Origin: Gemmatimonadota bacterium
GTDB taxonomy: Bacteria; ARS69
Direction of reading: 5' to 3'
Length of the DNA: 42,344 nucleotides
NCBI GenBank assembly: GCA_030747075.1
Contig: JASLLL010000025.1
Location: 1 to 42,344, forward strand
The position numbers were made by a program, and so were the translations under genes. Position 1 is the first letter of the stretch. Every line of letters starts with the position of its first letter. This document shows, in pieces, positions 29,560 through 42,344 of the stretch. The notes beneath the pieces are model-generated. The model did not search any database. It saw nothing but the letters and a program-made list of their open reading frames with translations, and was not told where the DNA came from.

Positions 29560-30228
29560 ATTTCCCGACCTTTCTGGGGGGCTCAAAAGATGCATCCTGC
29601 AGATCCGGCACGACTCTATTCGGGAGTCGACTCATCTCGCAGGAAGGGATGGCGCCTGACAATGGAGCGCACAAGCCCGTTTTCACTAGCACACGGGTTG
29701 CACAATAAACCGGTTTTGTGAAAAGGGAAAGTGGAAAAGGCCAGAGGGTGACCAGAAGACACCCTGAGGTTTCCTCTTCCGGGGGGCCGGGAAACCGGGG
29801 GCGGGGTGCGGTGCCGGGGAGGACGAAAGACTCGAAATACCGGCAGTCCACAGCCCGAAACCCCCGAGTTTCCCCATCTCGAAGACTGGAGAGCCACTCC
29901 GGGCGATTCTCCCCCGGCAAGAGGCGTGGGCGGAAGCACCTTCCGGAGAGGAAGCCTCGGGCGCCCCCATTGCACCCTTGGCCTTTTGGAGGGAACCATC
30001 CTCCTGTGCTCGCCGCCCCGCCCTCACCGGGAGGTGCAAGGCCACCCCCGCCATTCGCAGGAAACGGGCCACCGGTGCGGGAAACGCCAGGCTGGGAGAT
30101 TCCTGCAAATCAGAGTAGATTCGCGCCGATCCTCGCGAGGGACGCGCGTCGCGGGGGGCATGGCCGTGCAGTGTGTGCGGAACCGAAGCACACGGCTGAT
30201 CTCCACCTGAACAACCGCGGGGGTTGCT
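29560..30228. other. Intergenic stretch with no convincing gene; inverted repeat inside
   Basis: This 669-base region between divergent genes is the longest without a credible gene. TTTTCAC (29680-29686) and GTGAAAA (29718-29724) form a 7-base inverted repeat with a 31-base centre, inside an AT-richer island at about 29675-29735 that may hold promoter or operator sites for the HARE-HTH gene. The rest (29740-30228) is GC-rich and contains several G- or C-run hairpins. Open frames across it have arginine/proline-rich compositions typical of chance. I see no tRNA, tmRNA, RNase P or SRP signature. Confidence 0.5.
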
Positions 30229-31200
30229 TTGACACCGGACGAGCCACGCGACCCCATCCCGGGGCCGGAGTTCTTCGAGAGGGTGATGTTCGGCGCACGC
30301 GGGCTTGCGTTTGTGGTCCTCGCGTTTCTGGTGCCGGTCGTCATCCGGGAGATGGTCGGTGTCCTTCTGCCGGGAGGCGGATTCGCGGGGCTCCTTCGCG
30401 GGGACCCGGGGCCGCCCATCGTGCCGGTGGCGGTGGTCGCCGGAAGCGTGGGGCTGTCGGCGGCGGTCGTCCTTGCCTACAACCGGCTGGAGAAGCGGGG
30501 CGAAGGCCGCGCCGCCCGGCAAGCGGGTCACCGTCCGTTTCTGCGCCTGAGTGCTCGTTGGTGTCGCGAATGGGTGATGGGGTTCGCGGGCGGTGGAGGC
30601 ACGGCACTGGTCGTCGTGGGGGCCTGCGCCGCCGCCGGAGGATTCCGCATCACGGGGTTCTCTGCGCCCGGCACAGGCGTTGGGGGCTTCCTCGCGGTAC
30701 TGGCCGCGCTGGCCTTGGAAGCAGCCCGCGAGGAGATGGCATTCCGCGGCCCCGGCCAGCGGGATCTTGCTCGCGCCGTGAACTTCCCCTTCGCGGCAGT
30801 CTGGCTTTCGGGATCGTTCGCGCTGATCCACCTCGCCGACCCCGGGTCGCCCGGCCGCATGGGGACCTTCGGCGTCTTCCTCGCGGCGATGGCATTGGCG
30901 GGGCTTGTCCACTCTCGGGGAGATCTCGCAATGGCCTGCGGTGCCCACGCCGGATGGAACGCATTCGTCGCGCAGGTCTGTTCCGTGCCGGTCAGCGGAA
31001 CGCCGGTCGCCGCGCGATTGCTTGCCGTCGAGGCCGGCCCCTCCCGGCTGTGGAACGGGGGAGACTTCGGGCCGGAGGGAAGCCTGCCGGGAATCCTCGT
31101 GTTCGGGGTGTTCGGCTGGTGGATCTGGAAGCAGGCGGGGCGAAGGGCGCGCCTCCCCGCTCCCCGCAATCAGGACGACACGCACGCGCCTCGTCCATGA
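30229..31200 (+). CDS. CPBP family intramembrane protease
   Basis: This 323-residue polytopic membrane protein has the CPBP (Abi/CAAX protease) motifs. The glutamate pair and arginine of EExxxR (E168, E169, R173) are in AREEMAFRGPG. A His lies in FALIHLADPG, and the last motif is HAGWN. Family members cleave prenylated or other membrane-bound peptides, or serve in bacteriocin immunity. Seven to eight hydrophobic segments are visible. The TTG at 30229 has a G-run upstream. ATG at 30286, after GAGAGGGTG, is an equally likely start that drops a 19-residue hydrophilic leader. The substrate is not known and the context gives no clue. Confidence 0.87.
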   Translation: MTPDEPRDPIPGPEFFERVMFGARGLAFVVLAFLVPVVIREMVGVLLPGGGFAGLLRGDPGPPIVPVAVVAGSVGLSAAVVLAYNRLEKRGEGRAARQAGHRPFLRLSARWCREWVMGFAGGGGTALVVVGACAAAGGFRITGFSAPGTGVGGFLAVLAALALEAAREEMAFRGPGQRDLARAVNFPFAAVWLSGSFALIHLADPGSPGRMGTFGVFLAAMALAGLVHSRGDLAMACGAHAGWNAFVAQVCSVPVSGTPVAARLLAVEAGPSRLWNGGDFGPEGSLPGILVFGVFGWWIWKQAGRRARLPAPRNQDDTHAPRP

Positions 31201-31257
31201 CCAGGGTCTGCGGGCCCCGAAAGCCCGACGGCGGAATACCCACGATCGCCCCGGAAC

Positions 31258-31845
31258 TCAGGCGGAAGACGCCCCCGTCACGGGGCGGCTCCCGGGCTTT
31301 TCAACGGGGATGTTCGCAGCGCAGGCGGGACATTCAGACGGATCCCAGGCTTTCACATCGAGCGACAGGAGCGCATGGAACGGAACGCCGAGCGCGGCGC
31401 GACCGGCGCTCCGGTCCACCAGCGCACCCACGGCCACGACCTCCGCACCCGAAGCGTGCAGCACGGCCATGGTCTCTCGCGTGGACTTCCCGGTGGTGAC
31501 CACATCTTCCACAATCGCGATCCGCTCCCCGGGCGACACCCCGAACCCGCGGCGCAGCGCCATCTTTCCATCCGCGCGTTCGGTGAAAATCCCGCGGGCG
31601 CCCATGACGCGCGCCACTTCCCATCCCAGGACCACACCACCCAACGCGGGACCGACAATCGTCTCCGGTTCGGATTCGCGAAGCCGGGACGCCAGCGATC
31701 TCGCGAGTTCATCCGCACGCTCGGGATACTGAAGCACCAGCGCGGACTGGAAGTAGGTGTCGGAGTGCAGGCCGCTGGACAGATGGAAGTGCCCCGTGCG
31801 AAGTGCGCCCGTCTCCTCGAACGCACGGAGGATGTCCGATTCCAT
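31258..31845 (-). CDS. pyrE: Orotate phosphoribosyltransferase
   Basis: PyrE joins orotate and PRPP to give orotidine 5'-monophosphate. The 195-residue protein has FHLSSGLHSDTYFQ near the N-terminus, VGPALGGVVLGWEVAR and the PRPP-binding IVEDVVTTGKSTRE. The C-terminal CPACAANIP motif is seen in a subset of bacterial PyrE proteins. ATG at 31845 shares its A with the pyrF stop (TGATG). Longer in-frame readings lie within pyrF. It is the last gene of the pyrimidine operon. Confidence 0.96.
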   Translation of the reverse strand: MESDILRAFEETGALRTGHFHLSSGLHSDTYFQSALVLQYPERADELARSLASRLRESEPETIVGPALGGVVLGWEVARVMGARGIFTERADGKMALRRGFGVSPGERIAIVEDVVTTGKSTRETMAVLHASGAEVVAVGALVDRSAGRAALGVPFHALLSLDVKAWDPSECPACAANIPVEKPGSRPVTGASSA

Positions 31846-32591
31846 CACGACGCCACCTCCTCGAAGAACGAGCGGATCGACCGGAGTGCCTCGCGCGGGT
31901 TCTCCGAACGCGTGACCCCCCGCCCCACGACCAGTACATCCGCGCCCGACGCCACCGCCTCGGCAGGCGTGACCGTGCGCGCCTGGTCGGCGGACCCGCT
32001 CCCGGGCATCGTGATCCCGGGGGTCACGACCCATGCGTCAGGCCCCCCCGCGCTTCGCAGGATGGACGCTTCGCGCGCCGACCCCACCAGCCCGTGGGCC
32101 CCGGCTTCGATCGCCAGTCGCGCAAGGCGGCCGACCGCACCCGCCACGGTCTCTTCGTCCGGAGAGGCGGAGGCTCGCCACGCCGCAAGATCCAGACTGG
32201 TGAGCACCGTGACCGCAAGCACGGATGTTCCGCGCCCTGCGGCATCCGCCGCCGTCGCGGCTTCCTCCACCATGGCGGCACCTCCGGATGCGTGAACCGT
32301 GAGATAGCGAACGCCTTCGGCCGCGGCGTGGGCGGCGGCACGGGCAACAACGCTGGGGATATCGTGCAGTTTCAGGTCGAGAAACACACCCACGCCGGAA
32401 TCCTGAAGAGCGCGCACCAGCGGCATCCCTTCCCGCACAAAGAGCGCCGGACCCAGCTTGACGAGTCCCGCGTCGTCTCCCAGTGCGTCGCGCATGGCCA
32501 GCGCTTCGGCTCCCGTGGCAACATCCAGCGCCACCGCGATGCGTTCCGCCGGCGCAAGGTGCGCGCCGGGCCCGGTCGTCCGGTCACTCAT
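31845..32591 (-). CDS. pyrF: Orotidine 5'-phosphate decarboxylase
   Basis: PyrF decarboxylates OMP to UMP. The 248-residue protein has the barrel start RIAVALDV, the catalytic Asp/Lys set in FLDLKLHDIP (DxKxxD motif), YLTVHASGG, VTPGITMPG and VVGRGVTRSENP. ATG at 32591 overlaps the pyrD stop (ATGA). The longer open frame continuing upstream to 33272 is a shadow of pyrD. The length is typical of the short bacterial PyrF. Confidence 0.96.
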   Translation of the reverse strand: MSDRTTGPGAHLAPAERIAVALDVATGAEALAMRDALGDDAGLVKLGPALFVREGMPLVRALQDSGVGVFLDLKLHDIPSVVARAAAHAAAEGVRYLTVHASGGAAMVEEAATAADAAGRGTSVLAVTVLTSLDLAAWRASASPDEETVAGAVGRLARLAIEAGAHGLVGSAREASILRSAGGPDAWVVTPGITMPGSGSADQARTVTPAEAVASGADVLVVGRGVTRSENPREALRSIRSFFEEVAS

Positions 32592-33577
32592 GTTCGTCCT
32601 CCGCTTCCCAGCAAGTCGCCACCTTCCAGCGCACCCGTCACTTCCCGGATGGATGCATGCCCGTGTCGCGTGCAGTATTCCGAAAGGCCCGCGATGATCC
32701 GTCCCATGGCGCCCGGATCGGTGAAGAGGGCCGTCCCCACCTGCACCGCCGATGCCCCCGCGAGCAGGAACTCCAGCGCGTCTTCCGCGGAAGCAATCCC
32801 GCCGATCCCGATCACGGGAATCCCGACCGCGCGATGCACGCGATGGACCATCGCCACCGCAACCGGCCGGATCGCGGGGCCGGACAGCCCGCCCGTTCCC
32901 ATCGCCAGTTTCGGGCGCTTCCGCTCTACATCGATCGCCATGCCGATCAGCGTGTTGATCAGCGACACGGCATCCGCCCCGCCCGCTTCCGCCCCTTCGG
33001 CCACCGCCGCCGGATCCGCATTCGGGGTGAGTTTCGCCACGAGAAACGCGCTCGTCTCCGCACGACACCGGCGGAGGATTCCTTCCACCGCGCCGGGGTC
33101 CGCGCCGAAGGTGCGCCCACCTTCTTTCACATTCGGGCAGGAGAGGTTGATCTCGATCGCGGGGACAGTACCCACGGCTTCCGCCTTCGCGCAAAGTTCC
33201 GCGTATTCCTCCGGCGTTCCCCCGGCCACCGAGAGCACAGCCGCGCACGGTTCCGCGGATGCGGCCACCCACTCGTGGCGAAGGAAGCGGTCGATTCCGG
33301 GATTCTCGAGACCGATCGAGTTCAGCATTCCCGAAGGCGTTTCAGCCACGCGCGGGTGCGGGTTGCCGCGACGGGGGTGAAGCGTCACGCTCTTCGTCAC
33401 GAACCCGCCAAGAAGCGCATTGTCGATCAGTCCGTGGTAGTCGCCACCCGAACCGAAGGCGCCGCTTGCTGCCAACACGGGGTTCCGCAAGCGCAGCGAT
33501 CCGAGCCGGATCTCCAGTGGCGAAAGCGCCTTCGGCCCGCCCGTCGCGGGCGTTGGTGCCGTATTCGTGTCACTCAT
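32588..33577 (-). CDS. pyrD: Dihydroorotate dehydrogenase, class 1B catalytic subunit
   Basis: The FMN enzyme oxidises dihydroorotate to orotate. With PyrK it uses NAD as acceptor. The 329-residue protein has PVLAASGAFGSGGDY, LENPGIDRF, EINLSCPNVKEGG (with the catalytic Cys of class 1 enzymes) and IGIGGIASAEDALEFLLAGA, a typical FMN phosphate site. ATG at 33577 overlaps the pyrK stop (ATGA). A 15-residue leader precedes the core. The class 1B assignment rests on the adjacent pyrK. Confidence 0.95.
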   Translation of the reverse strand: MSDTNTAPTPATGGPKALSPLEIRLGSLRLRNPVLAASGAFGSGGDYHGLIDNALLGGFVTKSVTLHPRRGNPHPRVAETPSGMLNSIGLENPGIDRFLRHEWVAASAEPCAAVLSVAGGTPEEYAELCAKAEAVGTVPAIEINLSCPNVKEGGRTFGADPGAVEGILRRCRAETSAFLVAKLTPNADPAAVAEGAEAGGADAVSLINTLIGMAIDVERKRPKLAMGTGGLSGPAIRPVAVAMVHRVHRAVGIPVIGIGGIASAEDALEFLLAGASAVQVGTALFTDPGAMGRIIAGLSEYCTRHGHASIREVTGALEGGDLLGSGGRT

Positions 33578-34371
33578 GCGCCCACCTTCTCCCATACGAT
33601 CTCCGCCGCGTCGAACACCGGCCCCTCCCGGCAAACGCGCCAGGGCAGCGCCTCCGGGTCCGGCCCACTGACCACCGCGCACGCACGGCACGCGCCCACA
33701 CCGCACGCCATGTGCGCCTCCATCGATACCTGAAGGTCAATCCCCTGCGGCACGCAGACAGCGGCACACGCGCGAAGCATGGGTGCGGGGCCGGCCGCAT
33801 ACACGACGACCCCTCCCGCGGAGGCACCGTCGGACCGCGCAGTTGCCAGCCGGTCGCGCAGAAGGTCGACCACGCTCCCCGCGAACCCCTCGGAACCGTC
33901 GTCGGTGGCGTGCAACCAGTCGAGACCCGCGACGGCGTCGCCAAGATCGGCGGCGAAGAGTTCCCCCACAGACCGGGCTCCGAAGAGCGCCTCCATGGGC
34001 GCGGCGCATCCCGAGGCGCGCAGCCCTTCCGCCAGAGCGAGAAGCGGCGCAATCCCCAGGCCGCCTCCGACAAGAAGCACGGATTCCGCATCGGTCGGGA
34101 GGGCGAACGGGCGACCCAGCGGACCGAGCGTGTCGAGTGCATCGCCGGGGCGTCGATCGCGCAGCCAGCGGGTTCCCTCACCGACCACGCGGTAGATGAG
34201 CGTGAGTTCGCGATCGCGGATCCGCGCAATACTGAACGGGCGGCGCAGCACACGCGCTCCGCTGCCCGTGGCCAGATGAACAAACTGGCCGGGAAGACAG
34301 TCCCGCGCGATGCCCGGGCTTTCGAACGACAGCGCGTACACATTCGCCGCCAGTTCGCTGGTGCGGGTCAC
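33574..34371 (-). CDS. pyrK: Dihydroorotate dehydrogenase electron-transfer subunit
   Basis: PyrK passes electrons from PyrD to NAD through FAD and a [2Fe-2S] cluster. The FAD motif RRPFSI, the nucleotide-binding GGGLGIAPLL and the cluster cysteines (C223, C228, C231, C247 in CGVGACRAC and WRVC) are all visible. I chose GTG at 34371 (AAGGA upstream, 265 residues, just after the preceding gene's stop). The ATG at 34434 would overlap that gene by 53 bases and add 21 non-conserved residues. It overlaps pyrD by ATGA. Confidence 0.93.
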   Translation of the reverse strand: MTRTSELAANVYALSFESPGIARDCLPGQFVHLATGSGARVLRRPFSIARIRDRELTLIYRVVGEGTRWLRDRRPGDALDTLGPLGRPFALPTDAESVLLVGGGLGIAPLLALAEGLRASGCAAPMEALFGARSVGELFAADLGDAVAGLDWLHATDDGSEGFAGSVVDLLRDRLATARSDGASAGGVVVYAAGPAPMLRACAAVCVPQGIDLQVSMEAHMACGVGACRACAVVSGPDPEALPWRVCREGPVFDAAEIVWEKVGA

Positions 34372-34381
34372 GAGTCCTTGC

Positions 34382-36229
34382 TCAGTCTGCGGTGGACGGA
34401 TCAACCGGCTGCCTCCTTCCGCCCAGACGCGCATCCGGATCAAACGACTGCGAACGGGCCTTTCCGGGTTCGGGTGGCGGGAGAGTGGCGTCTTCGCGGG
34501 GCAGCGTGGCCTTGAGCGAGTCCTTCGCTGCGCCTGTCCCGCCCGCCTTTGCCTTCGGGCCGAAGACATATCGAAGCACGGTGATCGGCGCTCCCCCTTC
34601 ATCCGGAGGAAGAAACCGCGTCCCGGTGGCCGCCTCCACCGAGGCCGCGTCGCAATCCTCTCCGCCGGAACGCACCACCTTCGTCTCCGCCGGGCTCCCG
34701 TCCTCATCGATCCACACGCGCACCCATACCACGGCTTCCGGGTCCCCCTCGGGGAACTGCGCCTCCCGTGGCTCCGCGCGCTCGACGACGATGTCCACCG
34801 GTGTCGACTCTTCTCCCTCCGGCCTGACGAAGGAAACGCGGGGAACATCCAGCACGCGAGCCCGCCAGATCGGGAATCCGAAACGACCCCGAGCCGCGTC
34901 CGCGACATCCGTGCCCGAGTAGTGGTTTGCCAGCAAGTACAACAGGACTTCCGCCGTGTCGGGTTGGTCCAGGCGGTACTCATGAATCCACGCGGTGGAG
35001 TAGAGAGCCTTGCCGCCCCACAGCGTGCCCGGCGCATCTTCCGCCAGCGCCGCGTATTCTGTCAGCGCGCGGTCTACATCTCCGATGCTCTCCAAGTACT
35101 CTTCCGCCAGAAGGAACCGGTTCCGCAACCGCTCCGGGTCCTCTTCCGCAAGCCCCCCGATGGTGTTCTGCAGATCCATCACGCGCTGAATCCTCGTCCG
35201 CCGCTCCGATGCTTCGCGCCAGGCGGGGTGGCCCGTCCCCTGCTCCTTCACCTTCTCGTACGCCTCCAGCGCGGCCTCCAGGTCCCCGGATTCGTCCACC
35301 ATCTCCGCCAGCGCCAGTTGCGCGGCGGCTGCGGCTTCGCGCCGAGCCATCTCCTCCAGAATGCCCTCGTAGATGGAGATCGCCTCGTCCTCCTCGCCCA
35401 GCGCGCGACACACTTCGGCTTTGCGAAGCAGTGCCTTCCCGCGCCTCTTTTCGTCGAAGGAGCCGTGCGCAATCTCGTCGAAGGCGGAGCGCGCGCGCTT
35501 CAGTTCTCCCATCGCGATGAGTGCGTCTCCCCTGCGCATTCCAGCCCGGAAGCGATCGCGCACAATCTGCGCGTCATCCCATACGCGCTTGAAGAAGCCG
35601 GCCGCATCGGTCGCACTGCTGTCTTCCATCGCCATCTCGCCGAGCGCAAGCCCCGCCTCCGCAAACCAGTCCGACTCCGCGTGGTGTTCCACGACTTCAA
35701 GGTATGCTCCGTGTGCGGCTTCGCGATCTCCCTGCTCGAACTGGACTCGGCCGAGAAAGTACGCGGCATCCCCGCGCAACCGGTCGCCATCCGACACTTC
35801 GACCAGCATCTTCTCCAGCGACGCCACAGCCTCCGCGTATTCGCGTGCCTCCAGGTGCGTCCGCCCGAGCATGAGCAGCGCTTCCGGCACCAGTTCCGAG
35901 TCTGGAAAAAAAACGAGGATCTCGCGGCACTTGCGGACCGCTGCCGAGTAGTCCGACTTCTCGAAGCTGACACGCGCCATCAGGAGAAGGGCGTCGTCCA
36001 CCCACTTGCTCTCAGGGTAGAACTTCACGACTCGCGCGGCGCGTTCAAAGGACTCTTCGTAGAGGTTGATCTCCTGCCGCCCGATCTCCTCGCGTTCCTC
36101 ATCCGCGTTGCGCTTGATCTCCTGTGCTTCGTCGAACTTCTTCCGCGCATTGTAGAGCGTGTTGTAGTACGCACACCCCGATCCCGCCACGACAGCGAGC
36201 ATCGCAGCCAGAGTGATGAATCGGCGCAC
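34382..36229 (-). CDS. TPR lipoprotein with C-terminal TonB-like domain
   Basis: GTG at 36229 gives a short signal peptide (MRRFITLAAMLAVVAGSGC), with Cys19 the probable lipidated residue, followed by YYNTLYNARKKFDEA. About 450 residues of TPR-like helix pairs follow, for example the repeats containing YAEAVASLEKMLV and EDEAISIYEGILE. Residues about 476-556 match the TonB C-terminal fold (VWVRVWIDEDGSPAETKVV, SVEAATGTRFLPPDEGGAP). A 59-residue Pro/Lys-rich tail ends the 615-residue protein. TonB domains normally touch outer-membrane partners, so a periplasmic scaffold is plausible. It lies inside the pyrimidine operon, 26 bases after pyrC, with no obvious metabolic link. The start lacks a clear ribosome site. 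The upstream reading to 36421 lies within pyrC. Confidence 0.82.
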   Translation of the reverse strand: MRRFITLAAMLAVVAGSGCAYYNTLYNARKKFDEAQEIKRNADEEREEIGRQEINLYEESFERAARVVKFYPESKWVDDALLLMARVSFEKSDYSAAVRKCREILVFFPDSELVPEALLMLGRTHLEAREYAEAVASLEKMLVEVSDGDRLRGDAAYFLGRVQFEQGDREAAHGAYLEVVEHHAESDWFAEAGLALGEMAMEDSSATDAAGFFKRVWDDAQIVRDRFRAGMRRGDALIAMGELKRARSAFDEIAHGSFDEKRRGKALLRKAEVCRALGEEDEAISIYEGILEEMARREAAAAAQLALAEMVDESGDLEAALEAYEKVKEQGTGHPAWREASERRTRIQRVMDLQNTIGGLAEEDPERLRNRFLLAEEYLESIGDVDRALTEYAALAEDAPGTLWGGKALYSTAWIHEYRLDQPDTAEVLLYLLANHYSGTDVADAARGRFGFPIWRARVLDVPRVSFVRPEGEESTPVDIVVERAEPREAQFPEGDPEAVVWVRVWIDEDGSPAETKVVRSGGEDCDAASVEAATGTRFLPPDEGGAPITVLRYVFGPKAKAGGTGAAKDSLKATLPREDATLPPPEPGKARSQSFDPDARLGGRRQPVDPSTAD

Positions 36230-36255
36230 AGCCGTGCGGTGCGAAAGTAGCGTTC

Positions 36256-37571
36256 TCAGACCGAGGTCTCCTCCTGCACCGTGATGCGCGAAAGGGCGTC
36301 CGGGTGCGCGTGGGTCGTCTCCCCTCCGAGAAGGGTGAGAACCGCGCGCCCCACAAGTGCGCGGTCGATGAAAGGCGTGTTTCGCGCCTTCGACCGGAGG
36401 TCCGCCTGCGACACCGTCCACTTCTCCTGGGGATCGATCAACACAATGTCGGCTACCGCCCCGACGGAGAGCGTCCCTGCGTCGATCCCCAAGATCTGCG
36501 ACGGAATGATCGACATCTTGGCAATCACCTCCGGAAGCGTCATGTGGCCACCGGCGACGAGTTCGGTCACCGCCAGACCCAGCGCAGTCTCCAGCCCGAT
36601 GATGCCGAACGGCGCGCGGTCGAACTCAACCAACTTCTCACGGTCCGCGTGCGGGGCGTGATCCGTCGCGATGGCATCGAGCGTCCCGTCCGCCAGTCCT
36701 TCGATGATGGCCGAGCGATCTTCCGGCGTTCGGAGAGGCGGACTCATCTTCGTGGACGCATCATACCCTTCGACCGCCTCATCGGTCAGCGTGAAGTGGT
36801 GCGGTGCCGCTTCCGCCGTGACGCGAACGCCACGCCGCTTCGCCTGGCGGAGAATCTCCACCGACCCGGCCGTCGAGACATGGCAGACATGCAACCGGCC
36901 GCCGGTCATCTCCGCAAGCCGGATGTCGCGCTCGGTCCCGATTTCCTCCGCGGCGGCGGGCATCCCGGGAATCCCGAGGAGCGTGCTCATCCGGCCTTCA
37001 TTCATATGGCCGCCCGCGGAAAGATCCCGGTCTTCCGAATGCGAGAGGATTGCGCGGGAAGTCAGACGCGAATACTCCAGCGCGCGGCGCATGACGCGCG
37101 AACTGCCGACCGGATCGCCGTCGTCGGAGAAGCCGACCGCGCCCGCACGCTCCAGAAGGACCATTTCCGTCAGGTCTTTGCCCGCACGGCCTCGCGTGAT
37201 TGCCGCAATCGGGTGGACACGGCACAACCCCACCTCTGCCGCACGCGAGAGCACGGCCGCAATGGAAGGTTCGTCGTCCAGCGCGGGATTCGTGTTCGGC
37301 ATGCACGCCACCGAAGTGAAACCGCCCGCCGCCGCGGCCGCGGAACCGCTCGCGATGTCCTCCTTGTACTCGTATCCCGGCTCCCGCAGATGCACATGCA
37401 TGTCCACAAGGCCGGGCGCGACCGTAAGGCCCACCGCATCGATCTCCCGGACTCCGTCGGCCGCGATCCCCGGTTCCACTGCCGCAATCCTGCCGTCCTC
37501 CAGGAGAACATCCGCCACCTCATCCCTTCCTGAGGAAGGGTCCACTACACGCCCGCCCCGAATGAGCGTTT

Positions 37572-37575
<4 letters not shown>
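36256..37575 (-). CDS. pyrC: Dihydroorotase, class I
   Basis: The enzyme cyclises carbamoyl aspartate to dihydroorotate in the cytoplasm. The 439-residue protein has the amidohydrolase metal motif DMHVHLREPG, ACMPNTNP, HICHVSTAGS-like HVCHVSTAGS and the DHAPH metal ligands. These fit class I dihydroorotase, and ATDHAPHADREK with GTLSVGAVADIVLID are typical. The TTG start at 37575 overlaps the pyrB stop (TTGA) and has GGGAGGTG upstream. It follows pyrB directly, as in many pyr operons. Confidence 0.95.
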
Positions 37576-39296
<1,721 letters not shown>

Positions 39297-39501: not shown

Positions 39502-41895
39502 TTACGCGATGTCCAGCCTCCTCATCCGATCGCGGAGTCCCTTTCGGGAGATGCCCAGTGAGCAAGCGGCCTTCGCCTTCACCCCATCGCACCGGGCGAT
39601 GGCGTTGACGATCTCTCGACGCTCCACTTCCTGCATCCGCTCCTGAAGCGATGCCGCCGGGCCACTCGGCCCGTCCCCGGGAACCGGCGCGTCTCCGCGA
39701 AGTTCCCGTGGCAGGTGCTTCGCGCAGATCTCGCCCTCCGACCTCGCGTAGAACGCGGCGCTCTCCAGCGTGTTCCGCAATTCCCGCACATTTCCCGGCC
39801 AGCGATGGGCGCGCAGGAGAGTCCGTGCCTCGGAAGAGAGGCGGATCGGGTCGACGCTCCATTCCCGGGCCACCGAGCCGAGGAAGTGATCCACAAGAAG
39901 ATCCACATCTCCCGGGCGTTCGCGCAACGGCGGCAACCGCAAGCGGAACCCGCTCAGCCGGTAGTAGAGGTCCGGCAGGAAGCGGCCCTCCTCGGCCAGA
40001 ACGCGAGTGTCGTTGTTCGCCGCGCAGAGAATGCGGGCCTTGATGGGGACGGGCTCAATCGACCCCACGGGGCGAACCTCGCGCTCCTCAATCACGCGCA
40101 GGAGTTTCGACTGAAACTCCAGGCCCGCCTTGGCGATCTCGTCGAGCAGCACGGTGCCGGTCTCCGTGGCAGGCAGGATCCCCGGATGGTCGGCATTCGC
40201 CCCGGTGAAAGACCCCCTCTTGTGGCCGAAGAGCTCGCTCTCCAGAAGGTGCTCGGGGATGGCTGCGCAGTTGACCGCGATGAACGGCAACCCGGCTCGC
40301 CACCCGCCCAGATGCAGAATACGGGCAAGGAGTTCCTTGCCCGTTCCCGTTTCTCCCTCGATGAGGACGGTGTAGTCCTCGTCTGCCAGCGCCTGCGCCA
40401 GAGCGGCCGCCTCCCGGACTGACGGATCTCCGGTCACCAGCGCGGGCGCGTCTCCGGTTCTCTTTCGCCGCCTTGGAGGGGGGTCCCCTCCGGGCGGTCC
40501 GGGCAGTCCGAACTCCTTCAGGAGGCGCTCGGTATCCTCCAGATCTCTCAGTGCGCCGACTTCCGCAAAGATGCGGCGTGCCTCGAAAAGGTGGCCCACG
40601 ATCCGGACGCGCGCCTCCTCGCCATCGTCGGCGGGCAGGACCTCCGTCGCGGCCAGGTGGGTCCGGCCCAGTTCGTAGGGGGTGCCGATCCGCCGGAACA
40701 CCTCGACCGCCTTGTCCAACTCCACGGACGCCTCGGCAGTTCGTCCCGACTTCGCGAGAATCCGCGCGAGGGTGCGCCGTGCGTTGCCACACTCCCGCCG
40801 GTCAAAGTGCTTCCCGGCAAGGTCCAGAGCGCGACGCGCAGAGGCTTCCGCATCCGCAAGATCGCCTCGCGTCATCTGCACCAGAGCAATCCTCCAGGCC
40901 AGTTCGTAGACAAGATCCCCGTCGAGCTGGAAACTGTCCGCAAGCTCCATGCCTGTCCGGTAGTGCTCGGCGGCCTTCTCCATGTCCCCCGCAAGCCGCG
41001 CCAGATCCCCCAGTTCCTCGTACGCAAGCACGATCCCCCGGGGGTGCGAGCAGTTCTCCGCAAGTTCCAGCGCCTCGGCCGCATGATTGAGAGCGGTGTC
41101 CCAGTCTCCCTTGCGAGTGTGTACGCGAGAGAAGGCAATGTGGACGGAAGAGATGTCCGTGGACGACTCAAGCCGCCGGTAGATGCCAAGTGCCTCTTTG
41201 AGGAGGTCGCCCGCCCGATCCCCGCGGCCCCGGTAAAGCTCCACCAAGCCAAACTGCCACGCCGCATGGGCCCCCAGTTTCTCCTCTCCGAGTGCGCGAT
41301 AGACCTTGAGCGATTCTTCCAGATGCTCTGCCGCCGTATCCAGATTCCCCGCCTGCCTGTGAAGGAGTCCCAGGGCTGAAATCCCCAACGCCTCTTCAGA
41401 CGGTGTGCCGCCACGCCTCGCAAACGCCACGGACTCCTGGTACAGCGATCGCGCTGCAGCGTGGTTCCCCAAGCGCCGCTCCGCATAACCCATCCACCGA
41501 AGAACTCGGCTCATCTCCGCGTGTTCAGTGGTGGGAGCCAGTTCCGAACGGGCCTGTTCACACTGACGAAGACACTCCTTGTAGTCTCCCAGGAAGAACT
41601 GTGTCCATCCGGACAGCGCGTGAATCCTGGCGGTCGCGGAAATGGACACTCCGTCCAGCTCCTCCAGAGCATCCTCCAGAACGGCATTGGCTCTCCTGTT
41701 ATCACCTTGTTGGTGCAGGCACCATGCGAGGTTCCACAAGAGTTCGGCGCGCCGCTCCCGGTCGTTTTCGTCGGCGGTCAGAAGAGCCGCGGAGAACTCT
41801 TCCTGAGCCTCGGCATACATATGCGCCGCCAGAAGTGCGTCTCCACGACAAGGGGTTCCCGTTTGTTTCATCTGCCGCTCTACCAGGCGATCCAT
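39502..41895 (-). CDS. Sigma-54-dependent activator with N-terminal TPR region
   Basis: ATG at 41895 (GGGAGGTGG upstream) gives 797 residues. The first 470 or so are TPR-like helix pairs (LWNLAWCLHQQGD, LLHRQAGNLDTAAEHLEESL and others) replacing a receiver or GAF domain. The AAA+ core has Walker A GETGTGKE (514-521), the sigma-54 contact loop GSFTGA (561-566, usually GAFTGA), Walker B VLLDE (582-586) and RWPGNVRELRN. A Fis-type helix-turn-helix ends the protein (ACSLGISRKGLRDRMRRL). It should activate RNA polymerase with sigma-54. The TPR region presumably senses a protein or peptide. It overlaps the small exported-protein gene by 16 bases. A longer reading upstream to 42147 runs through that gene. 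Confidence 0.9.
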   Translation of the reverse strand: MDRLVERQMKQTGTPCRGDALLAAHMYAEAQEEFSAALLTADENDRERRAELLWNLAWCLHQQGDNRRANAVLEDALEELDGVSISATARIHALSGWTQFFLGDYKECLRQCEQARSELAPTTEHAEMSRVLRWMGYAERRLGNHAAARSLYQESVAFARRGGTPSEEALGISALGLLHRQAGNLDTAAEHLEESLKVYRALGEEKLGAHAAWQFGLVELYRGRGDRAGDLLKEALGIYRRLESSTDISSVHIAFSRVHTRKGDWDTALNHAAEALELAENCSHPRGIVLAYEELGDLARLAGDMEKAAEHYRTGMELADSFQLDGDLVYELAWRIALVQMTRGDLADAEASARRALDLAGKHFDRRECGNARRTLARILAKSGRTAEASVELDKAVEVFRRIGTPYELGRTHLAATEVLPADDGEEARVRIVGHLFEARRIFAEVGALRDLEDTERLLKEFGLPGPPGGDPPPRRRKRTGDAPALVTGDPSVREAAALAQALADEDYTVLIEGETGTGKELLARILHLGGWRAGLPFIAVNCAAIPEHLLESELFGHKRGSFTGANADHPGILPATETGTVLLDEIAKAGLEFQSKLLRVIEEREVRPVGSIEPVPIKARILCAANNDTRVLAEEGRFLPDLYYRLSGFRLRLPPLRERPGDVDLLVDHFLGSVAREWSVDPIRLSSEARTLLRAHRWPGNVRELRNTLESAAFYARSEGEICAKHLPRELRGDAPVPGDGPSGPAASLQERMQEVERREIVNAIARCDGVKAKAACSLGISRKGLRDRMRRLDIA
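39509..39546. repeat. Direct repeat, left copy (activator 3' end)
   Basis: These 38 bases recur exactly at 42279-42316, 2,770 bases away. They encode most of the C-terminal recognition-helix region of the activator in both places. Confidence 0.9.
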
Positions 41896-42188
41896 GACCA
41901 CCTCCCGAGAAGCAGAATGCCGCGAAGAACGATGCCCCGACCCCAAGTCTCCCTGGACTCCCTGGACTCCTTTACCATCGGCGGGAGGGTTGCCCGACGA
42001 TCGGCGGCGGCGGATTCGGGGATGGAAACCTCTCCCTGACTCCAGTGCGCGATAGCCGGACTGTCTGGATCCCCGTCGATCACGATCTCTTCCGTGACTC
42101 TCATGATGCTCACATTGGCGAACGCGGGCGCCGCCACCATCGCCCAAAGGAGCAGGGCGCCAACCCCCGTCAGGGCTACTCGTCTCAT
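41880..42188 (-). CDS. Small exported protein of unknown function
   Basis: ATG at 42188 gives 102 residues. The start was chosen because it begins a clear signal peptide (MRRVALTGVGALLLWAMVAA, cleavage near APAFA-N). The mature part (about 77 residues) has an acidic segment (MRVTEEIVIDGDPDSP), an Arg/Glu/Ser-rich centre and a hydrophobic Trp-containing end (LLLGRWSWIAW). No family is recognised. It lies 83 bases after the stop of the right-edge activator and overlaps the start of the next activator gene by 16 bases, so it is probably co-expressed with them. It may be a chance frame, but the signal peptide and position favour a gene. Confidence 0.6.
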   Translation of the reverse strand: MRRVALTGVGALLLWAMVAAPAFANVSIMRVTEEIVIDGDPDSPAIAHWSQGEVSIPESAAADRRATLPPMVKESRESRETWGRGIVLRGILLLGRWSWIAW

Positions 42189-42271
42189 GTCACGCAACCT
42201 CGCCGTTAAGTTTGAGGTGGTGGATTCCGGGAAGATACGCGCTGTTGGAACAGTTCTTTCCGTAGATCCAC

Positions 42272-42344
42272 TCACGCAATGTCCAGCCTCCTCATCCGAT
42301 CGCGGAGTCCCTTTCGAGAGATGCCGAGCGAACGCGCAGCCTCC
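42272..42344 (-). CDS. Second sigma-54 activator, C-terminal end only
   Basis: Only the last 23 codons and the stop are inside the window. They read EAARSLGISRKGLRDRMRRL followed by DIA and a TGA stop. The last 17 residues are identical to the end of the activator at 39502-41895. This is the Fis-type DNA-binding helix-turn-helix. The rest of the gene lies beyond the right edge, so that it has the same TPR/AAA+ architecture is inferred. Confidence 0.85.
   Translation of the reverse strand, partial: EAARSLGISRKGLRDRMRRLDIA
42279..42316. repeat. Direct repeat, right copy (activator 3' end)
   Basis: Exact 38-base match to 39509-39546. Beyond it the two copies diverge at scattered positions. Confidence 0.9.

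Follow-up and report, generated by a model that had tools for sequence, protein, structure and literature searches.

The window examined here, a stretch of 42,344 nucleotides (nt) that forms an entire contig (C25) of a Gemmatimonadota genome of 2.67 Mb in 61 contigs, carries near its right edge, which is the contig end, a gene for a small exported protein and directly behind it the gene for regulator A2, a tetratricopeptide repeat (TPR) protein with an AAA+ sigma-54 activator domain and a Fis-type helix-turn-helix (HTH) (Table 1). We found that the two genes belong to a conserved pair that recurs more than 80 times in at least five bacterial phyla, far beyond chance. The observations described below led us to regard it as reasonably probable that the pair is a two-gene signalling module, in which the small protein is exported and serves as the cognate ligand for the TPR domain of its own regulator. 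The initial annotation had described a 102-residue signal-peptide protein whose gene overlaps that of the second of two activators, and the reading frames confirmed this arrangement, with an overlap of 16 nt.

A direct search of 60 genomes with the 102-residue protein matched only itself because the small protein diverges too fast, and the search was therefore made via the regulator. In the window's phylum, represented by five genomes of one family, all 13 full-length TPR activators had a small signal-peptide open reading frame (ORF) directly upstream. These ORFs ended between 31 nt inside the activator gene and 40 nt before its start, and at eight of the twelve loci other than the window's the overlap was 1 or 4 nt; the start codons are uncertain for several genes. 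An activator profile was compared with 386 genomes spread over the domain and found full-length relatives in G198, G329, G102, G138 and G300, which represent four further phyla according to phylum searches and kinship labels, each with a small signal-peptide ORF in front. Searches of the phyla of G198 (47 genomes, 35 positive), G138 (eight genomes, four positive) and G102 (seven genomes) yielded many more activators. Among 70 non-redundant TPR activators from five phyla, a script found a candidate small ORF for 68. On inspection, a clear ORF bearing the sequence box described below took the place of a weak candidate at L225, and L297 added one more ORF with a box; L010 starts at a contig edge and is uninformative, and the tally after inspection was 69 of 70 informative TPR activators. 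As a control, the same procedure was applied to sigma-54 activators lacking this TPR region, and a signal-peptide-like ORF was observed upstream of four of 45, in no case with a box. The small gene was also present in front of all 15 regulators of TPR-GAF-AAA+-HTH type (about 1040 residues, two phyla). These regulators (L067:4471-7560, minus strand, and L279-L293) each had their own partner of GDPDxP or GDGDIP type and constitute a second receptor architecture of the same module. Likewise, paralogous regulators within one genome each had their own version of the small protein. Three activators of 947-1066 residues (L294 in G029; L295 and L296 in G013) also had a signal-peptide ORF just upstream, which lacked a canonical box; the association may extend beyond the five phyla counted. 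In the open-access literature searched, no system combining TPRs, sigma-54 and an exported peptide was described.

The small proteins are 70-124 residues long (median 104, n = 82 collected) and follow a general plan, which consists of a signal peptide, a GDPDxP-type box within about 40 residues after it, a variable linker and a hydrophobic tail of about 20 residues with aromatic and basic residues. In the window's protein, the signal-peptide-like sequence MRRVALTGVGALLLWAMVAAPAFA (about residues 1-24, with predicted cleavage before NVSI) is followed by the box DGDPDSP, a disordered linker and the hydrophobic, aromatic C-terminal tail GIVLRGILLLGRWSWIAW. The AlphaFold2 (AF2) model of the single chain showed helices at residues 2-19 and 76-101 and a low-confidence middle, with a mean predicted local distance difference test score (pLDDT) of 66. 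By a heuristic, an export signal was assigned to all 13 proteins of the phylum set and to nearly all members elsewhere, and most members have AxA-type cleavage sites. Over their full length the 13 proteins can scarcely be aligned (they are 12-26% identical to that of the window), and the pattern [GSN][DE]Pxx[PL] was found in all of them, 9-18 residues past the predicted cleavage, compared with 0.15 on average and at most three of 13 in 20,000 shuffles. Over all distinct small proteins, the box was observed in 79 of 84 (shuffles: mean 7.6, maximum 16) and plain GDPD in 44 of 84 (shuffles: mean 0.3). The box differs by subfamily, with versions such as GDPDxP, GEPTDP, GDGDIP, GDTDPDDFP, GSPDETLNPP (GSPDET) and GDPTADDQPSPTPK. 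When the window's genome was searched in an unbiased manner for codons encoding GDPDxP, 15 sites were returned, only two of which lie within small signal-peptide ORFs, namely the window gene and one fronting a TPR-GAF activator on contig C5. The fraction of W/F/Y/L/I/V/M was 0.45 in the C-terminal stretch versus 0.20 in the linker, and the mean net charge of the C-terminal stretch was +2.5. The helical amphipathicity of the tail was barely above that of shuffles (mean z 0.37), and we do not claim it as a feature. No family match above the cut-off was obtained for seven small proteins against Pfam or for five against NCBIfam. Autocleavage between Asp and Pro, for which GDPH proteins are a precedent, was considered as a function of the box and was dropped, as many members have Glu-Pro or GDGD.

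The initial annotation had named two observations that would speak against its reading, namely a small gene that is absent beside related activators or one that is not translated. The core idea of a TPR/sigma-54 activator tied to a small exported protein withstood both, as the small gene is kept in at least five phyla and several signs suggested that it is translated. The ratio of nonsynonymous to synonymous substitution rates (dN/dS) was 0.26-0.52 in 10 of 12 alignable pairs, and the other two gave 1.06 (a close pair with few changes) and 0.90; these values are rough because dS is saturated. A motif resembling a ribosome site precedes 64 of 84 small-gene starts, compared with 25% of random starts, and the GC content of the third codon position exceeds that of the second in 79 of 84 small genes.

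In A2, Pfam identified TPRs, Sigma54_activat (PF00158, 1e-54), AAA_lid_14 and HTH_8, together with a match to PF17874. The TPR superhelix spans residues 14-461 approximately (about 12 TPRs), the AAA+ domain residues 488-736 approximately and the HTH residues 755-793. A Foldseek search with the AF2 model (mean pLDDT 88) matched the AAA+ domains of FlrC, FleQ and NtrC, and a genome_contigs scan matched the AAA+ domains of further enhancer-binding proteins, mainly from Bradyrhizobium. Motif alignment showed the Walker motifs GETGTGKE and LLDE and the contact loop GSFTGA, and the window's genome has one rpoN match (PF04552, 2.6e-62). By sequence, the closest solved relatives of the TPR region are TPRs with a peptide groove (designed TPRs, LGN/Pins and kinesin light chain), and AfsR is also among its relatives in the PDB; no RRNPP receptor was found among the best 60 of 112 solved TPR relatives in this sequence-based comparison.

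The initial annotation had proposed sigma-54 activation as the output. This agreed with most members, since GAFTGA was found by strict pattern in 54 of 70 TPR activators, but the output is not constant. The loop is lost in one subgroup and reads GAFTDA in the GAF type (checked in two members from the window's phylum), and the small gene is kept in both. In G198's phylum, the regulators L214 and L217-L223 have lost GAFTGA altogether, although the exported partner and the majority of the Walker-type motifs are still present; an action through sigma-54 is improbable for this subgroup. The constant element is the TPR input. We further compared the divergence of the small proteins with that of their regulators. 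The correlation with TPR identity was r 0.41 for similarity of the linker and r 0.37 for similarity of the tail (permutation standard deviation about 0.05), and it was absent for similarity of the signal peptide (r 0.03). The correlation between tail and TPR remained at r 0.35 when AAA+/HTH distance was held fixed, versus r -0.01 between tail and AAA+/HTH at fixed TPR distance. As the pairing is kept without GAFTGA and the co-divergence of the tail is specific to the TPRs, we infer that the partner of the small protein is the TPR input and not the sigma-54 output. In the window's genome, no convincing match to a sigma-54 promoter was obtained before the pairs or in the surrounding 10-42 kb, and self-activation is therefore unsupported. 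Neighbouring genes are not common between phyla either, and from both findings the targets of the regulators probably lie elsewhere. The only hint of a conserved neighbourhood was noticed by eye in the subfamily with the GEPTDP box (L060, L061, L062, L065 and L311 on G000:C11), where several genera have a gene resembling FKBP upstream of the pair or one resembling a MATE transporter downstream.

In the mechanism we propose, the first gene would encode a small protein with signal peptide, box, linker and tail that is exported by Sec, and the second a regulator whose TPR superhelix would be the input and whose AAA+ and Fis-type HTH domains would be the output, mostly through sigma-54. The tail and linker would dock in the TPR groove and switch the AAA+ ring on or off. 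Given the export signal, the regulator would read either a processed peptide that returns or a precursor that failed to leave, and our confidence is divided about equally between the two. In the former version, the exported protein would be cleaved, perhaps at the common box or beyond it, and the tail peptide would re-enter via an oligopeptide permease; the window's genome encodes four OppA-like binding proteins, a finding that permits import and does not show it. In the latter, the unexported precursor would meet the newly made regulator, and export would relieve or block it. An anatomy like that of RRNPP systems favours re-import. The conservation of the tail, in turn, favours export-coupled sensing; a tail like MWRLRVVLQSLRSFYFRF recurs across many genera in one family of G198's phylum.

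Several observations weigh against a ligand function. Such conservation across genera is unlike fast-changing pheromones, and a hydrophobic tail of 20 residues is long for oligopeptide import. The correlation between tail and TPR may stem in part from the shared ancestry of two genes that are inherited together. On inspection, L226 had no small ORF, and the partners at L176, L200, L213, L292 and L204 lack the box by the pattern used. In addition, the signal peptides were assigned by a simple hydropathy and cleavage-site rule and not by SignalP. Finally, a fragment on contig C18 that probably represents the N-terminal part of the neighbouring activator A1 has no small signal-peptide ORF in front.

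Other explanations of the pairing were considered. The small protein might be an envelope or secreted effector that is co-expressed with the regulator, such as a membrane-active peptide, and thus an output rather than the TPR input. A signal peptide and a hydrophobic, cationic tail would fit a membrane-active or envelope protein, and co-transcription alone could account for the linkage. We consider this rather improbable, because the linkage to one regulator class is nearly strictly 1:1, no orphan small exported ORF with GDPDxP was found in the window's genome, and no strong sigma-54 promoter was found before the pairs; moreover, the small protein co-diverges with the sensor domain and not with the output domain, and paralogous regulators of one genome each have their own version. 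It is unlikely that the small protein is instead a membrane-tethered anti-activator, whose uncleaved signal peptide would hold it in the inner membrane, where it would sequester the regulator until an envelope stress released it, in a Psp-like manner. The hydrophobic N-terminus and tail agree with this proposal, and translational coupling would suit a stoichiometric inhibitor; however, most members have AxA-type cleavage sites, and an inserted N-terminus would put the tail and the box on the periplasmic side of the membrane, whereas the TPR domain is cytoplasmic. That the small gene is a chance ORF or an annotation artefact beside an ordinary tandem duplication of sigma-54 activators would agree with the lack of a Pfam or NCBIfam family, but is refuted by 84 distinct sequences with a common box, purifying selection and ribosome sites.

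About as unlikely as the anti-activator is a regulatory nascent chain like SecM, VemP or ApdA, in which Sec would pull the signal peptide, stalling near the C-terminus would tune translation of the activator, and the released protein would have no function. Searches for such leaders have looked for a short upstream ORF of unknown function with an N-terminal export signal and a conserved C-terminal segment (PMC10987492). The small genes agree with several of these criteria, including a C-terminal segment that is conserved within subfamilies and follows a spacer longer than 30 residues, and they lie directly upstream of, or overlap, the gene possibly controlled; the leaders of arrest peptides that monitor Sec or YidC (SecM, VemP, MifM and ApdA) likewise lie just upstream. 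However, the GDPD-type box, which shows the strongest conservation, is about 40-75 residues away from the C-terminus and thus beyond the ribosome tunnel; neither a RAPP-like nor a proline-rich arrest motif occurs in the tails, which vary from one subfamily to another; and the downstream gene encodes a transcription regulator and not a component of Sec or YidC. The tail tracks TPR divergence specifically, which a leader acting on the ribosome need not do, and overlaps of 1 or 4 bases leave scant room for a separately sequestered ribosome site. Judged from its sequence, with no arrest motif and a conserved box well away from the C-terminal end, the small protein does not belong to the described types of arrest peptide (PMC10987492).

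The initial annotation had likened the locus to peptide sensing by RRNPP systems. As a lead for how the module may work, the analogy is fair, but membership of that family fails. RRNPP systems have been defined by five criteria, namely a propeptide of 10-100 residues, a Sec-type export signal, a receptor of 250-500 residues, peptide-binding TPRs in that receptor, and neighbouring genes (PMC10075063). In the pairs described here, the export signal (by heuristic) and the direct gene neighbourhood were found, TPRs are present according to Pfam and AF2, with peptide binding putative, and the lengths of the small proteins, with a median of 104 residues, straddle the upper bound of the propeptide range; the window's protein has 102 residues. 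The regulators are too long, with 797 residues in the window and 734-1066 elsewhere. Since the receptor length fails and the AAA+/Fis architecture differs, the module follows an RRNPP-like logic and is not an RRNPP member as defined (PMC10075063). Like the RRNPP(A) systems (Rap-Phr, PlcR-PapR, NprR-NprX, ComR-ComS and AimR-AimP), it places a small exported protein with a variable C-terminal tail beside a cytoplasmic TPR regulator and keeps the pairing through duplications. Unlike these HTH-TPR proteins, the regulators carry C-terminal AAA+ and Fis-type HTH domains, the small gene lies upstream and has a common GDPDxP box, and the phyla, so far as one can judge, do not include known hosts of RRNPP systems.

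The regulators also resemble NtrC-type enhancer-binding proteins (FlrC, FleQ, NorR and PspF) in their Walker motifs, GAFTGA in most members, the Fis HTH and the rpoN gene in the genome, and Foldseek and NCBIfam matched them to this class. In contrast to the receiver, GAF or PAS domain alone of that class, their input is a superhelix of about 12 TPRs (with a GAF domain in the second group); they have a dedicated exported partner, and GAFTGA is lost in some. With MalT- and AfsR-type regulators they share a TPR superhelix as sensor (as indicated by the PF17874 match and by AfsR among the PDB relatives), whereas the output here is AAA+ of sigma-54 type instead of LuxR or SARP type with a STAND ATPase. 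We know of no exported partner encoded alongside MalT.

To our knowledge, the sensing of exported peptides of a cell's own inside that cell has so far been confined to Firmicutes and their phages. If the small protein is the ligand, such sensing would extend to several phyla, with transcription of sigma-54 type as its output. A signal would thereby be proposed for a class of regulators that has lacked one, and for more than 80 receptors the exact candidate peptide is named; the box would predict the residues that meet shared machinery, and the tail those that give specificity. A bolder proposal, which we put forward only tentatively, is a class of peptide signalling beyond the known RRNPP hosts, with an exported precursor, a common GDPDxP box for processing or recognition, a receptor-specific tail, a TPR-AAA+ receptor, sigma-54-type transcription and several parallel copies per genome. 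The alternative of secretion sensing would be new too, if true, as a transcription factor would read the export state of a dedicated substrate.

The second activator, A1, is cut by the contig end, and its last 23 codons are readable (69 coding nt at 42275-42343, stop codon at 42272-42274). The C-termini of A1 and A2 are identical over 19 residues, SLGISRKGLRDRMRRLDIA, where the initial annotation had counted 17, and the 38-base exact repeat reported there was present as a run inside a direct repeat of 69 nt (39504-39572 and 42274-42342) with 88% identity. The C18 fragment mentioned above (G000:C18:48194-48985) is an N-terminal part of an activator with 43% identity to residues 17-266 of A2 and ends at a contig edge in a compatible orientation. 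Judged from the sequence, it is probably the other half of A1, which would place the join over a gap of about 1.5 kb between the end of C18 and positions 42272-42344 of the window; the middle of A1 is absent from the assembly. The tandem arrangement of two activators is thus likely and, with A1 cut, unproven. The other loci examined consisted of one small gene and one activator, which is the unit, and the tandem duplication is incidental.

Table 1. Positions of the small gene, the two activators and the associated sequence elements in the window.
Feature	Position	Strand	Remarks
Small exported-protein gene, 102 residues	41880..42188	-	ATG at 42188; from ORF and overlap reading
Regulator A2, 797 residues	39502..41895	-	TPR, AAA+ sigma-54 activator, Fis HTH; ATG at 41895
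Overlap of small-gene end and A2 start, 16 nt	41880..41895	-	From ORF coordinates
C-terminal end of upstream second activator A1	42272..42344	-	Cut by contig end; HTH end shared with A2
GDPDxP box GGGGATCCAGACAGTCC in small gene	42058..42074	-	From genome-wide codon search for GDPDxP
Repeat copy within A2 HTH coding region	39504..39572		Partner copy at 42274-42342

Rfam gave no match at the locus. By eye, a cluster resembling pyrimidine biosynthesis genes (aspartate carbamoyltransferase, dihydroorotase, PyrR-like and PyrE-like) follows A2 at 29700-39200 of the window on the minus strand, and an ORF resembling a TPR lipoprotein was seen in between, at 34382-36421.

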